Assembly (NCBI GenBank): GCA_009937425.1
Contig: JAACFO010000001.1
Location: 1-64,000, forward strand
DNA length: 64,000 nucleotides
Direction: 5' to 3'
DNA from: Gammaproteobacteria bacterium
GTDB lineage: Bacteria > Pseudomonadota > Gammaproteobacteria > HK1
Shown: piece by piece, positions 7,307-31,263 of the stretch
Layout: every line of letters starts with the position of its first letter
Position numbering within the stretch: position 1 is the first letter of the stretch
Notes under the pieces: generated by a model
What the model saw: the letters and a program-made list of their open reading frames with translations, nothing else
Told to the model about the DNA's origin: nothing
Database searches by the model: none
Made by a program: the position numbers and the translations under genes

Positions 7307-8698
7307 TCAGTTTTTGACCACGGGGGTAAGGCTGCTTGGCGCCAGTCCCGCCAGTGCCGTATCCAGGCGCCCGGGGGCACGACCCGCATCCTCCGCCATT
7401 TCCTTGCGCCCCACCGCAGCGAGAACGAGTCGCCCAACCAGGTAACGCGCAGGCTCCGTGGGCAGGAAGCGCTGCGGGCGTTGCTCCACCATGGGAGATG
7501 TCGCCCATTCGTCCTTTGCCCCGAGTACCAGGGATGCCAGAATCTTACCGCCCAGATACGAAGGGCCCACACCGTTGCCGGTGTAGCCGTGGCCGTAGAC
7601 GATGGAGGGGGCGCCGGGTAATCGGCCGAAATGCGGCAGGCCCGTGGCAGTGCGGGTAGCGGGCCCGCGCCAGGCACTGGCGATATCCACGCCGGCGAGG
7701 GAGGGATAGTGATAAGCCATCTCCCTGGCGAGCTCCTCGCGGCGCACAGACGGATCATCGAAGCGGCGCCCCAATCGACCTGCGAATGGGATCGCGCCAC
7801 CACTCTTTCCAAAGCACAGACGGCCGTCCGGCGTGCCGCGATAATAGTCGACCAGCAGCCGCGAGTCGGAAATGGCAATGCCGGTATGCAGACCGATCTC
7901 CTCGAGCCGCTCTCGTATCGGTCTGGTCATGACGACATCCGACGCTATTGGCAGGACGCTGCGGCGGAACACCGGCAGCTCGTGGGCCCAGGCGTTAAGA
8001 GCCAGGACCACCGTGTCCGCGGTCACCCTGGCGGCAGGGGTGTGCACTACCGGTGACGACCCGAGCCCGAGCCTGGTCATTGCTGTCTTCTCGTGGATTC
8101 GCACACCTTTCGCCAGGGCGACACGAGCAAGGGTGCGCGCTAACAGCGCTGGTTGTACGGTAGCGACGTCACCTTCGAATACGCCAGCCAGTTGCCGATC
8201 GCTGCCGCCAAGCTCGGCCACATGGCAGGATTCCAGCAGATCGAATGGCTCTAAACCGTGCTTCGCGAGCACCTCCACGGTCTCATTCCAGGCACCAAGC
8301 TGACTGGCGTTGCTGGCGGTCCATAGCCAGCCGCGGCGACGAAAGTGACCACCCAGGCCGTGGGCGTCACAAAAATCCCCGACAGCGCGTACCGCGGCTT
8401 GGGATTCGCGCAGCAGGCGCACACCTTCCTGGCCACCGCAGATCTTCAACAAGGTGCTGGCCTTCGACATCCAGGTCATGACGAACCCGGCGTTGCGCCC
8501 ACTGGCGCCGGACCCGCACAGATCGGCTTCGACGATGGTGATATCCACCGAGGGGTCCCGGCTTTTGAGTTCCAGCGCTGTCCACAACCCCGTGAATCCG
8601 CCGCCCACAATACAGACATCGGTACGCAGATCGTGCTCCAGAGGAACCGGCGACGCCGACTCGGCGTCGAAAGCCTGTTGGAGCCAGAAACTCCTCAC
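7307..8698 (-). CDS. FAD-dependent oxidoreductase (DAO family, PuuB-like)
   Basis: DVCIVGGGFTGLWTALELKSRDPSVDITIVEADLCGSGASGRNAGF; C-terminal GHGYTGNGVGPSYLGG. Confidence 0.9.
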   Translation of the reverse strand: MRSFWLQQAFDAESASPVPLEHDLRTDVCIVGGGFTGLWTALELKSRDPSVDITIVEADLCGSGASGRNAGFVMTWMSKASTLLKICGGQEGVRLLRESQAAVRAVGDFCDAHGLGGHFRRRGWLWTASNASQLGAWNETVEVLAKHGLEPFDLLESCHVAELGGSDRQLAGVFEGDVATVQPALLARTLARVALAKGVRIHEKTAMTRLGLGSSPVVHTPAARVTADTVVLALNAWAHELPVFRRSVLPIASDVVMTRPIRERLEEIGLHTGIAISDSRLLVDYYRGTPDGRLCFGKSGGAIPFAGRLGRRFDDPSVRREELAREMAYHYPSLAGVDIASAWRGPATRTATGLPHFGRLPGAPSIVYGHGYTGNGVGPSYLGGKILASLVLGAKDEWATSPMVEQRPQRFLPTEPARYLVGRLVLAAVGRKEMAEDAGRAPGRLDTALAGLAPSSLTPVVKN

Positions 8699-9153
8699 CT
8701 GCTGAGTTCACCGCGGATCACGTAGGCGAGCAATTTCGCAACCTGCTCGGGAGTACTTGCCACGGCCATCGCTGCAGCATCCACTTCCTTCAGCGCATGG
8801 TTTAGGTCGGAGTCGTGCAGGGTAATAACCGGTTTCGCTCTCGCGGCCGCGTAGCCGGCATCGAACGCTGCATTCCATTGCCGGTACTTATCGCCGAAAC
8901 GGACCACGACCACATCGGCCTGGTCGATCAGGGACCGCGTGCGTATGGCGTTCACTTTCGCGCCTTTGTTGTCTTTCCAAAAGGGCGAAGGCTCGTCGCC
9001 GAGGATCACAACACCGCAATCGTCGCTGTCGGAGTGATCGGTTACCGGGCCTGTGAGCGTGACTGGCAAGTCCAGGTCCTGCGCCGTCGACGCGATGCGT
9101 GCGCGCCAGTCAGTGTGGATTTCACCGGATAAATAAACAGTCCAATCGGACAT
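8695..9153 (-). CDS. YtoQ family protein
   Basis: WTVYLSGEIHTDWR...LTGPVTDHSDSDDCG...DKYRQWNAAFDAGYA matches recalled YtoQ family. Confidence 0.85.
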   Translation of the reverse strand: MSDWTVYLSGEIHTDWRARIASTAQDLDLPVTLTGPVTDHSDSDDCGVVILGDEPSPFWKDNKGAKVNAIRTRSLIDQADVVVVRFGDKYRQWNAAFDAGYAAARAKPVITLHDSDLNHALKEVDAAAMAVASTPEQVAKLLAYVIRGELSR

Positions 9154-9343
9154 GAGGCGCCTCCTCGAGATGAGCAGTGGATGAGTAACGATTCGGGCTA
9201 TGACGGCATAACATAGTTTGCTGGTGGAAAGGAACTGAATTTGTCACTCCATGGGAACGAATGGACTCCAGACAACGGGTAGGTCCGATCCTATACTCTA
9301 GAGATGCCACTTCGGGCCCCACGCGCCCCGCCAGGATTCACCA

Positions 9344-9826
9344 ATGTGCCGATTTACCATACTTCTGCTTGTAGCGATGTTAACCACCACCGCGGCCCAA
9401 GCCGCCAAGATGTACAAGTGGGTGGACGATAAAGGCGTCACGCATTTTTCCGCGCGCCAGCCCCCCCGGATGAATGCAGACAAGACCAAGCTGCAAGGCG
9501 GAACGGTGGAGCAGCCGCACGCCAACTCTGAATCCCAGGAGCTGGCAAGAATCAAGCGTAAGGATTTGGACAATCCCGGCTGGCAGGGATGCCACAGCAG
9601 TCTGTGTCAGCTGGTGCAGCGAATCGATGCGGCTTGTCAGACGAGCTTCTGCAGCCGCGCAAAAAAGTACAGCAAGGGATGCACATCGGCCACCTGCCAG
9701 ACGAAAAAACTGGCTTTCGAAAAAGATATGCAAAACCGCGTGAAGGTCCAGAACGATATGCGGCAACAACAAGCCATTAATGCGAGCGCCACACCCGCGG
9801 CGCCGCCTTCCCAGAATCAGGATTGA
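9344..9826 (+). CDS. Exported DUF4124-type protein with three periodic CX4C motifs
   Basis: Signal peptide MCRFTILLLVAMLTTTAAQAA; MYKWVDDKGVTHFS DUF4124 start; CHSSLC/CQTSFC/CTSATC. Confidence 0.8.
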   Translation: MCRFTILLLVAMLTTTAAQAAKMYKWVDDKGVTHFSARQPPRMNADKTKLQGGTVEQPHANSESQELARIKRKDLDNPGWQGCHSSLCQLVQRIDAACQTSFCSRAKKYSKGCTSATCQTKKLAFEKDMQNRVKVQNDMRQQQAINASATPAAPPSQNQD

Positions 9827-28018: not shown

Positions 28019-28444
28019 TTACTTCGGCTTGTCCACGTCGCCGAACAGGGCGTCGAGTTGTTTGCGCGCTTCCTCGGCCTTTGCACGTTTGCGCTCCATC
28101 AGCGATTCGGCGTCACCGGCGGAGGACTGGTCGCTGGCCTTGCTGTCGATCCCGAACATGGCCTCCAGCTGCGCCCTGGCCCCTTCGGCCTCGCCGGCGC
28201 CCCCGGCAGCGTCGATACCGGATTGTCCACGAAAGTAGTCACAGAAGTTGGCACGTTCCTTATCCGTAACCTCCTCTGCCACCGGCTCACGACAGCTTTT
28301 CGCCACCGACGTATCATAGAACTCACACAAACGGCAGACGTGGAGATCGGCGCTACAAGCTGGACATTCGTCGCGGCGCCGCAGCGGCATCGGCATGTCG
28401 TCGAGAGCGTGTCCGCACTTCCAGCAACTCAGTGAACCGCTGAT
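28019..28444 (-). CDS. Conserved zinc-ribbon-like protein (three CXXC motifs), non-ATG start
   Basis: CWKCGHALDDMPMPLRRRDECPACSADLHVCRLCEFYD...ANFCDYFRG; CWKC lies upstream of the ATG at 28396; AGGAGGT at 28450-28456. Confidence 0.6.
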   Translation of the reverse strand: MSGSLSCWKCGHALDDMPMPLRRRDECPACSADLHVCRLCEFYDTSVAKSCREPVAEEVTDKERANFCDYFRGQSGIDAAGGAGEAEGARAQLEAMFGIDSKASDQSSAGDAESLMERKRAKAEEARKQLDALFGDVDKPK

Positions 28445-28561: not shown

Positions 28562-28999
28562 TCAAGGCATGCCGAGTTGTTTCACGCGTTCGTTGGTCAA
28601 TGTAATCATGCAGGCCAGAAAAACATCGCCGCTGCCTGTACCGGGCGACATGGCCTCCGCCTGCCTGTCGCACTCCGCATCCCGGTAAGCACGCCAGCGC
28701 TCTGCGCTCACCCGGGTGCGCTCGACGTTTTTCGACCGATTGCCCGTCACCCGGTCGAGCTCCAGCGCTTCGCCCTCGACCCGCGACCGGGTCATCTCGA
28801 GACGCCCCTGGGCATCGTGGAGAAGACCTTTTAGACACGGCGCAAGCGCGATCCGCGTGCTCGCCTGCTTCCAACAGTGGGCCAGTGGAGAATCAACGAC
28901 AGCGTCACCTTCTGCCGCCATGGCCATGGCGGTGAACTGCGGCAACGGTGTGCCGATCAGCACCGAGGCGATGGCGACAATCCTCACCAATAAACCCAT
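28562..28999 (-). CDS. Exported LprI/DUF1311-like protein
   Basis: Signal-like MGLLVRIVAIASVLIGTPLPQFTAMAMAA; ERWRAYRDAECDRQA...FLACMITLTNERVKQL. Confidence 0.6.
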   Translation of the reverse strand: MGLLVRIVAIASVLIGTPLPQFTAMAMAAEGDAVVDSPLAHCWKQASTRIALAPCLKGLLHDAQGRLEMTRSRVEGEALELDRVTGNRSKNVERTRVSAERWRAYRDAECDRQAEAMSPGTGSGDVFLACMITLTNERVKQLGMP

Positions 29000-29112
29000 G
29001 GAGAAGCTCGCCGGCGTAGCCACATTGCGGCCCAACACGTTGAATTTTCCGCCTTTTACTCCTAGCCTCAGTTGATGCACCAGCGTCCCCGCGTCGATTC
29101 CGAGAGCCAGCG

Positions 29113-29532
29113 TTGAACGTGCACAGCTTAGCCTGGCCGGCGATCCTCTGCGCATGTCTATTCTCCACGGGCAGCAACGCCTACTTCCCCATCGAGATCC
29201 CATCGCCGCCCATGCTCCAGGTCGCCAGCTCCGTACCCACCGCTCCTGTGGAGCGACTGCGTACGATCCCCGAGGACGCCAAGAAGGGCGTCATGTGGCC
29301 GCCCCGGGGCCCGCAAGTGCGGATCGACGACACCTTGATGAGGCTGGCTCCCGGCGTGACCATCCGCGACATGAATAACCGCATGGTCCTGCCGAATACC
29401 GTGCGCCGGCCGAAAAAGATCCGCTACACCCTGGACCACTACGGACAGGTGCGGCGCATCTGGATTTCCCCCACGGGGGAGTACCAGGGGCGCCATCAGC
29501 CAACCCTGCCGCCAACACCTCGCGAAGACTGA
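29113..29532 (+). CDS. Hypothetical exported protein
   Basis: Signal peptide MNVHSLAWPAILCACLFSTGSNA; compact basic C-terminal region. Confidence 0.6.
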   Translation: MNVHSLAWPAILCACLFSTGSNAYFPIEIPSPPMLQVASSVPTAPVERLRTIPEDAKKGVMWPPRGPQVRIDDTLMRLAPGVTIRDMNNRMVLPNTVRRPKKIRYTLDHYGQVRRIWISPTGEYQGRHQPTLPPTPRED

Positions 29533-29576: not shown

Positions 29577-30017
29577 TTAGTTGCTTGACGGCTGGCGCTG
29601 GTGCTGCGGGCAAGCGGCGGGATCAGCGCGGCAGGATTGCCGCTTCGCGCGCATCTCTTCGCGTTTCGCCTGGCATCGCTCCGGGTTGGACTCACAAAGG
29701 GCCCGCATGCGTTGGTGACGCTCCTGTCGCTCGGCACGCCGCGCCTCGCACTCCTCGGGATTCTGCTCACACCAGGCACGGCGCTGCGCATGTCTGGCCT
29801 TGCGCTCCTGGCATTTCTGCGGATTTTCCTGGCACCACGCCTGCATTCGCGCCCGCCGTTCCTGGAAACGGGATTTGATTTCCTCGCAGCGATCGGGTTC
29901 CTCTGCGCAGCGCTGTTCGATACGCTGTTGGTGGTTCCCATCTTGTTTGTTGGCCAGAACCGGGAACGTGATGGCCATCGTGCTGACTAACAGTATCGAC
30001 AGGGTGAACTTGTTCAT
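29577..30017 (-). CDS. Exported charged helical protein with five CX6C pairs
   Basis: Signal peptide MNKFTLSILLVSTMAITFPVLA; CAEEPDRC, CQENPQKC, CEQNPEEC, CESNPERC, CRADPAAC. Confidence 0.75.
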   Translation of the reverse strand: MNKFTLSILLVSTMAITFPVLANKQDGNHQQRIEQRCAEEPDRCEEIKSRFQERRARMQAWCQENPQKCQERKARHAQRRAWCEQNPEECEARRAERQERHQRMRALCESNPERCQAKREEMRAKRQSCRADPAACPQHQRQPSSN

Positions 30018-30087
30018 GCTTGACCTCATTATTGTGTATCTCTTCGCTCTTATAACGCGCGATGTGCCCCGTGGTTGACAGGATCCC

Positions 30088-31263
30088 GTGAACAGCGCGA
30101 ATCGAACCGTTATCCCCTTGCAGCGACCGGCGCTGGTGGCGAGCGTTGCGCTCTCGACGGTCCTGTTCATCTATTTGTTCAATTTCGGTTCCAGCAAGCC
30201 ATGGTTGTTTCTCATCGGAATCGGCCTGGGGCTGGCCCTCTACCATGCGGCATTCGGATTCACCAGCGCCTATCGCCGCGCCATCCTGCAGCGGGACATA
30301 TCCGGGGTAACGGCGCAGATGGTCATGCTGGCGGCGGCCATGCTGCTGTTCGCGCCGGTGCTGGCGGCGGGTCAGATCTTCGGCCACGGCGTTACCGGGG
30401 CGGTGGCACCGGTGAGTATCTCCATGGCCTTCGGCGCCCTGATATTTGGAATCGGCATGCAAATGGGCGGCGCCTGCGCCTCCGGCACCCTGTTGACGGT
30501 GGGTGGTGGCAACCTGCGCATGCTGCTGGTTCTGGTGTTCTTCTGCCTCGGCACCTTCTGGGCGAGTCTCCATATGCAATGGTGGACGAGCCTGCCGGGA
30601 ATCGGCGCCGTGTCGCTGGCGGGAACGATCGGGAACTGGCAGGCGGTGGCGTTGCAGATGGTCGCCCTGTTGCTCATTTACGGTTTTCTGCGCCTGATTG
30701 GAGGGCGCAACCAGCGCGAGCTCTGGTGGAATCACGCATTCAGCTGGGGCCGCCTGGCACGCGGACCGTGGCCGCTGTTGTTGGGCGCCGGGGCCCTGGC
30801 AGGGCTCAACTGGCTGACCCTGCTGGTGGCCGGCCACCCCTGGTCGGTCACCTGGGGATTCACCCTGTGGGCGGGCAAGCTGGCATTCCTGCTCGGGTGG
30901 GACCCGATGACGAGCGCGTTCTGGAGCGGCAGCTTCGCCCAAGGGGCGCTGTCGCGTTCGTTGCTCGCGGACACCACCTCTGTGATGAACTTCGGCATCG
31001 TCATCGGCGCACTGACCGCCGCGGCCCTGGCCGGCAATCTGCGCTTCAGCGTCCGCATGTCCTGGTTGTCACTGGCCGCGGCCGTCGCCGGCGGCTTGTT
31101 GCTGGGCTACGGAGCGCGGCTCGCCTATGGCTGTAACATTGGCGCCTTCTTCAGCGGCATCGCCTCCACCAGCCTGCACGGTTGGGTGTGGATCGTGGCA
31201 GCAGTGCTCGGTAACATCATCGGCGTACGCCTGCGGCCGTTGTTGCGGCTTGCCGACGCCTGA
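30088..31263 (+). CDS. YeeE/YedE family transporter (thiosulfate/sulfur-compound type)
   Basis: GMQMGGACASGTLLTVGGGN and GARLAYGCNIGAFFSGIASTSLHGW repeat motifs, multiple TM segments. Confidence 0.9.
   Translation: MNSANRTVIPLQRPALVASVALSTVLFIYLFNFGSSKPWLFLIGIGLGLALYHAAFGFTSAYRRAILQRDISGVTAQMVMLAAAMLLFAPVLAAGQIFGHGVTGAVAPVSISMAFGALIFGIGMQMGGACASGTLLTVGGGNLRMLLVLVFFCLGTFWASLHMQWWTSLPGIGAVSLAGTIGNWQAVALQMVALLLIYGFLRLIGGRNQRELWWNHAFSWGRLARGPWPLLLGAGALAGLNWLTLLVAGHPWSVTWGFTLWAGKLAFLLGWDPMTSAFWSGSFAQGALSRSLLADTTSVMNFGIVIGALTAAALAGNLRFSVRMSWLSLAAAVAGGLLLGYGARLAYGCNIGAFFSGIASTSLHGWVWIVAAVLGNIIGVRLRPLLRLADA

Follow-up and report, generated by a model that had tools for sequence, protein, structure and literature searches.

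A short gene in a gammaproteobacterial contig (JAACFO010000001.1, of which the first 64,000 nucleotides were analyzed and are here called the window) encodes an exported protein with regularly spaced pairs of cysteines. It lies divergent to a gene for a YeeE/YedE-type sulfur transporter (PF04143), which is followed in the window by an RND pump. The locus raises the question of what such a protein does, and whether it belongs with the transporter beside it, as the initial annotation had implied.

The CxxxPxxC protein and its relatives

The 146-amino-acid product has the N terminus MNKFTLSILLVSTMAITFPVLANK. Positions 29610 to 29909, to which the initial annotation had assigned the feature, cover its five CxxxPxxC motifs (clamps), but the whole gene extends from 29577 to 30017 (Table 1). 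Two features support the ATG at 30017 as the start: a ribosome-binding stretch rich in purines (GAGG) and, 62 bp upstream, a promoter. Ten cysteines were identified (37/44, 62/69, 83/90, 108/115, and 129/136) and none besides; all five pairs are CxxxPxxC, with starts 25, 21, 25, and 21 residues apart (X17/X13/X17/X13). The exported open reading frame with five clamps alternating 17-13-17-13, as first described, is therefore exact in the window sequence. Past residue 22, the protein is composed largely of Arg (23), Gln (18), Glu (18), Ala (14), and Cys (10), with scarcely any hydrophobic residues and a net charge of +8; among relatives the charge ranges from −5 to +28.

Table 1. Positions of the CxxxPxxC gene, its promoter, and neighboring features in the window
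Feature	Position	Strand	Remarks
Small Cys-containing protein	28019-28396	minus	Syntenic in the same-genus genome
LprI-domain protein (PF07007)	28562-29203	minus	Syntenic in the same-genus genome
Region missing from the same-genus genome	29502-30154		Replaced there by ∼420 bp of unrelated sequence; synteny on both sides
CDS of exported CxxxPxxC repeat protein, 146 aa	29577-30017	minus	ATG at 30017; stop codon included
Clamp 5, CRADPAAC	29610-29633	minus	Residues 129-136
Clamp 4, CESNPERC	29673-29696	minus	Residues 108-115
Clamp 3, CEQNPEEC	29748-29771	minus	Residues 83-90
Clamp 2, CQENPQKC	29811-29834	minus	Residues 62-69
Clamp 1, CAEEPDRC	29886-29909	minus	Residues 37-44
Sec signal peptide (predicted), MNKFTLSILLVSTMAITFPVLA	29952-30017	minus	Residues 1-22; from sequence reading; relatives' N termini also hydrophobic
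ECF-type promoter, GTCAACC-N14-GCGTTAT	30052-30079	minus	-35 GTCAAC 30079-30074; -10 CGTT 30057-30054
YeeE/YedE-type sulfur transporter gene (PF04143)	30088-31263	plus	Divergent neighbor

Relatives were found mainly in two groups, one in another order (the G048 group, named after a genome with two paralogues) and one in the family around a Nevskiales metagenome-assembled genome (MAG). A tblastn search of 94 genomes returned the two G048 paralogues and a few weak matches, and the gene was not found in the other sampled genomes of its own family. A scan of the genome collection identified the Nevskiales MAG protein (WYBE01000028.1), which carries six clamps at spacings of 18-21-25-21-25. In profile searches, five of the 369 genomes from the class, the source genome among them, had family members, 22 of 43 genomes of the G048 order matched, some of the weaker matches being other Cys-repeat proteins, and 16 of 40 genomes matched in the Nevskiales group; in a sample of 399 genomes from the phylum the source genome was the sole match. 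The family is therefore concentrated in certain groups. A weak second match within the source genome (contig C159; E value, 0.43), which has no clamps, was rejected. Proteins of the G048 order with CxxNPxxCGI repeats (L045 from G400, L046, L047, L049, and L050) were set aside, as theirs is a different repeat; some of the weaker matches in that order are due to them. They are exported and long, with as many as 12 CxxNPxSCGI repeats of ∼26 to 29 residues each, and several share a conserved C-terminal domain.

The 136 CxxxPxxC instances in the family gave the logo C-x-x-[N/D]-P-x-x-C, with the proline replaced in one clamp in a few members. The window protein and its relatives each combine a signal peptide with at least three such clamps at quantized spacing. 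Only paired cysteines occur in the mature window and Nevskiales-group proteins, and many G048-group members have one extra. A survey of repeat number in relatives, which the initial annotation had proposed, gave counts of three to six clamps, including per member of the Nevskiales group. The strict alternation seen in the window protein is not universal; relatives instead keep a small set of permitted spacings, almost only 18, 21, or 25 in the Nevskiales group and overwhelmingly 18, 21, 25, or 28 across the family. These spacings are whole helical turns. Among random sets of four spacings drawn from the range 17 to 29, 0.4% were equally concentrated on a period of 3.4 to 3.7 residues, a descriptive figure that ignores phylogeny. 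The last linker in the G048 group has spacings of 30, 37, or 44, in heptad steps. The cysteine periodicity in orthologues, on which the earlier reading had been made to depend, is thus conserved and the reading is not refuted; as the clamp pattern recurs in relatives, it is more than chance.

Searches of Pfam, NCBIfam, PHROGs, PADLOC, and PDB sequences returned only low-complexity or coiled-coil noise, in agreement with the earlier remark that no known family came to mind, and a search of the literature turned up no papers on CXXXPXXC or DUF3106. The CxxxPxxC family appears to be unnamed, its repeat being unmatched in the libraries searched.

AlphaFold models were built from shallow alignments (13 to 20 rows). 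The window protein (20 rows; pLDDT, 86; pTM, 0.59) was predicted to form helices at residues 27 to 39, 41 to 64, 66 to 85, 87 to 110, and 112 to 131, with a single-residue break directly before every clamp proline, and a separate job on the Nevskiales protein placed the same break at all six of its clamps. The structure prediction suggested in the initial annotation thus gave charged helices interrupted at the clamps and, together with the profile searches, supports its description of a charged helical repeat protein that is exported and has a conserved proline in its CX6C loops. Relative to the second cysteine of a clamp, hydrophobic residues are found mostly at +3, +7, +10/11, +14, and +17/18; the next cysteine falls on the same stripe and both cysteines share one helix face, the pattern expected if amphipathic helices made a whole number of turns from one bend to the next. 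A toy backbone model placed cysteines i and i+7 at a distance of 10.9 Å if the helix was unbroken, and one extended residue before the proline produced a bend of 114 to 131° with a Cβ-Cβ distance of 3.2 to 4.7 Å, within disulfide range. When the whole array was built as a toy chain, its overall shape depended too strongly on the turn angles to be fixed. DsbB is encoded in the source genome. Helices, bends, disulfides, and the periplasmic location are all given here as predictions. Foldseek searches of the PDB with two models, which have low power for helical arrays, identified no fold match and no Hcp or SLR structure. Of the hydrophobic-plus-His residues, 58% are Met in the Nevskiales group; the window protein has 27% Met and 27% His, and the group without the promoter described below has 9% Met and 32% Leu. 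In the window protein, the Met/His/aromatic seam is weak.

Genomic neighborhood

In the same-genus genome (G001), the transporter is kept (80% identical) and the neighbors to the left are in synteny, with the CxxxPxxC gene replaced by unrelated DNA. The gene is thus accessory at this locus and was judged not to be a partner of the YeeE/YedE transporter, and the tie implied in the initial annotation was rejected. No match was obtained in the area of the gene with Rfam, nor in plasmid and viral searches.

The Nevskiales-group locus reads dapF-DUF484-xerC-[gene]-hslV-hslU-ubiE, with gene names that we presume from sequence recognition and recurrent clustering, and in most loci of the G048 group the gene follows purM-purN. 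Because the locus is not common to both groups, the idea that the gene works with hslVU or purN was dropped. One context (L020 from genome G298, positions 8401 to 9597) carries two tandem CxxxPxxC paralogues between purN and a convergent hslU-hslV pair, an arrangement that joins the two locus types. In another (L021 from genome G141, positions 926 to 1985), a six-clamp gene lies directly downstream of one for a small exported protein that, by eye only, we take to be DsrE-like.

A promoter common to the gene and an ECF sigma operon

A σ70 promoter scan found nothing, and the best clue to function, one beyond the view of the initial annotation, came from an ECF-type promoter common to the gene and a sigma factor operon. 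The pattern GTCAAC-N16-CGTT lies between −55 and −99 of the window and Nevskiales-group genes despite their unrelated loci; the window and 14 of the 16 Nevskiales-group contexts each have one copy, always before the CxxxPxxC gene. A single occurrence was seen among the G048-group and G141 contexts, and it does not precede the gene. The longer form GTCAACC-N14-GCGTTAT is a perfect match in the window and the sole one even with two mismatches allowed; loose, mismatched matches arose in 29 of 100 shuffled windows. Across the whole source genome, the pattern with CGTTA gave five matches, compared with one for a control, and GTCAACC-N14-GCGTTA occurs at two sites only, before the CxxxPxxC gene and upstream of an ECF sigma gene. 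A candidate remnant of the promoter in G001 was unconvincing.

The sigma factor was assigned to NF006550/PRK09047 (234 bits; cutoff, 173). Its operon (contig C297 of the source genome, positions 19889 to 19190 and downstream; L118 and L120) continues with a DUF3619 gene whose product has a membrane segment, a gene for a small exported protein, and a DUF3106 gene for an exported protein with an Arg/Gln/Glu-rich repeat. A search of 30 genomes detected sigma orthologues in 24, and the promoter was found at 23 of these loci (the source genome and 22 others); the remaining locus begins at a contig end. The sigma gene was not detected in three of the 16 gene-bearing Nevskiales-group genomes, and both genomes with a promoterless CxxxPxxC gene are among those three (chance, 3/120; MAGs are incomplete). 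Such regulation is not general, since members in the G048 order, behind purN, lack this promoter. In L133 and L136 (genomes G835 and G829), the sigma operon is flanked by two more GTCAAC-N16-CGTT sites (reverse-strand positions 354 and 3031/3001). They precede an outer-membrane-like exported open reading frame of ∼299 codons and a Thr/Arg-rich exported one of 170 to 180 codons, which are possible further members of the regulon.

In Acinetobacter, mutagenesis of the SigAb promoter mapped the −35 element to GTCAAC and the −10 element to CGTT, with a native spacer of 17 and little impact of a spacer of 16 (PMC12153292). The window promoter has the same two elements at a spacer of 16. SigAb is a copper-responsive ECF sigma factor required for copper resistance and described as Acinetobacter specific; its operon, sigAb-aabA-aabB, also encodes a transmembrane anti-sigma factor (AabA) and a periplasmic helical partner with anti-sigma activity (AabB) (PMC12153292). 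The order here of sigma factor, DUF3619 membrane protein, and exported DUF3106 protein is a parallel layout, and by this analogy the operon is likely a SigAb-type system outside Acinetobacter.

Proposed function and comparison with known systems

As its promoter matches that of a copper-responsive stress sigma factor, the CxxxPxxC protein is probably envelope protective rather than involved in sulfur transport. Envelope or metal stress induces Spy, CpxP, and ZraP, which are small, charged, helical, and exported. The reading tentatively preferred here is that of a stress-induced periplasmic array of helices stapled by disulfides, which would give passive protection as Spy or ZraP does. Once exported by Sec, the protein would consist of short amphipathic helices of high charge, arrayed one after another and joined by the C-x-x-[N/D]-P-x-x-C turn, where Asn or Asp would cap one helix, Pro would start the next, and the two cysteines would form a disulfide across the bend. 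Synthesis on demand would depend on the SigAb-type sigma factor, whose gene lies at a separate locus, the inducing signal probably being copper or another envelope stress, by analogy with Acinetobacter. Unfolded or metal-damaged clients could be bound along the Met/His/aromatic seam of this disulfide-stiffened, repeat-scalable array. Such a chaperone-like role is supported by the conserved repeat, the helix breaks, the hydrophobic/Cys stripe, DsbB, and the promoter common with the sigma operon. It is weakened by the weak seam of the window protein, the description of SigAb as Acinetobacter specific, and the absence of any LTXXQ (Spy/CpxP) motif or profile match in the window protein or its relatives, the Spy fold likewise being unmatched.

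A less likely but possible alternative is a periplasmic Cu(I)/oxidant sink, in which the Cys pairs, reduced or cycling, would act with a Met/His-rich seam and the number of clamps would set capacity, much as in an exported copper storage protein. It is favored by that seam, since Met is so much more frequent in the promoter-bearing Nevskiales group than in the promoterless one, and is consistent with a clamp number that varies and with a promoter matching that of a copper-responsive sigma factor (PMC12153292). However, Sec export in a DsbB-containing cell favors oxidation of consecutive Cys pairs, every pair is modeled at a helix bend within disulfide range, and Pfam gave no match to the copper storage protein (Csp) profile in the window protein or relatives; the sink was ranked after Spy/ZraP-like protection. 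That the protein modulates signaling, through periplasmic feedback on the ECF pathway via the DUF3106 or DUF3619 product (like CpxP, RseB, CnrX, or AabB), seems unlikely. The common promoter, the anti-sigma activity of AabB, and the similar Arg/Gln/Glu-rich repeat of the DUF3106 product point that way, but many genomes, including G001, have the sigma operon and its promoter without a CxxxPxxC gene, so the pathway can exist in its absence.

The very low hydrophobic content, the net charge of the window protein, and a helical array model without a PDB match would also suit a charged spacer or polyanion-binding envelope element with no specific stress role; strict Cys/Pro conservation and a common regulated promoter make this improbable, and the charge varies widely among relatives, down to negative values. 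Hardly any credence is given to a partnership with the transporter in sulfur uptake, for which the divergent arrangement 70 bp apart and the putative DsrE-like neighbor in L021 could be cited, because the transporter is kept in G001 without the gene and none occurs among the gene clusters recurring around relatives. A broader reading is likewise doubtful: a new one-module exported family (a whole-turn charged helix plus a CxxNPxxC bend), tuned in copy number during evolution and deployed by SigAb-type sigma factors in several gammaproteobacterial groups, might buffer the periplasm in response to copper and redox state, its Cys/Met seam alternating between a disulfide and a Cu(I)-thiolate form.

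With these results, an orphan family in at least two bacterial groups gains a predicted architecture and a likely regulator, and uncharacterized sigma-DUF3619-DUF3106 systems are connected to a promoter measured for SigAb. If the predictions hold, the repeat would provide an unusual and designable helical module, almost devoid of hydrophobic residues and stabilized, it appears, by disulfide bends at regular intervals.

Several known systems share features with this protein. The likeness to Spy, CpxP, and ZraP is one of working; unlike them, the CxxxPxxC protein has Cys clamps as its building units. In DUF3106 proteins (PF11304), too, short helix-like repeats rich in Arg, Gln, and Glu form an exported array behind the same promoter, but these proteins lack Cys clamps and give at most a weak, composition-driven match (E value, 0.0018) to the region of the gene. 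Exported Csp proteins are helical and Cys rich, and bind Cu(I) by cysteines lining a four-helix bundle; in the CxxxPxxC protein, in contrast, the cysteines would lie at helix bends. The CagY repeat region of Helicobacter pylori, likened by description, also has charged α-helical repeats with regularly placed cysteines (PMC2581425), although in a 38- to 39-residue A motif within a secretion-system protein. Exported helical repeats tied by disulfides are already known from HcpB and HcpC of Helicobacter, where disulfides between sequence-near cysteines tie the helices (PMC3851747, PMC2581425), as predicted here; the CxxxPxxC repeat itself is unmatched. HcpB and HcpC have a 36- to 38-residue Sel1 repeat with a hydrophobic core, whereas the present protein has spacings of 18, 21, 25, or 28 residues, almost no hydrophobic residues, and a proline inside the loop. 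With neither the Sel1 repeat length nor, in Pfam searches of the window protein and relatives, a Sel1 profile match, it is not a Sel1/Hcp member. The direct targets reported for SigAb are sigAb, relA, and the small RNA SabS (PMC12153292), and thus, unlike here, include no Cys-repeat protein. By analogy of promoter elements and operon layout, the identity of the promoter suggests SigAb-type recognition beyond Acinetobacter.
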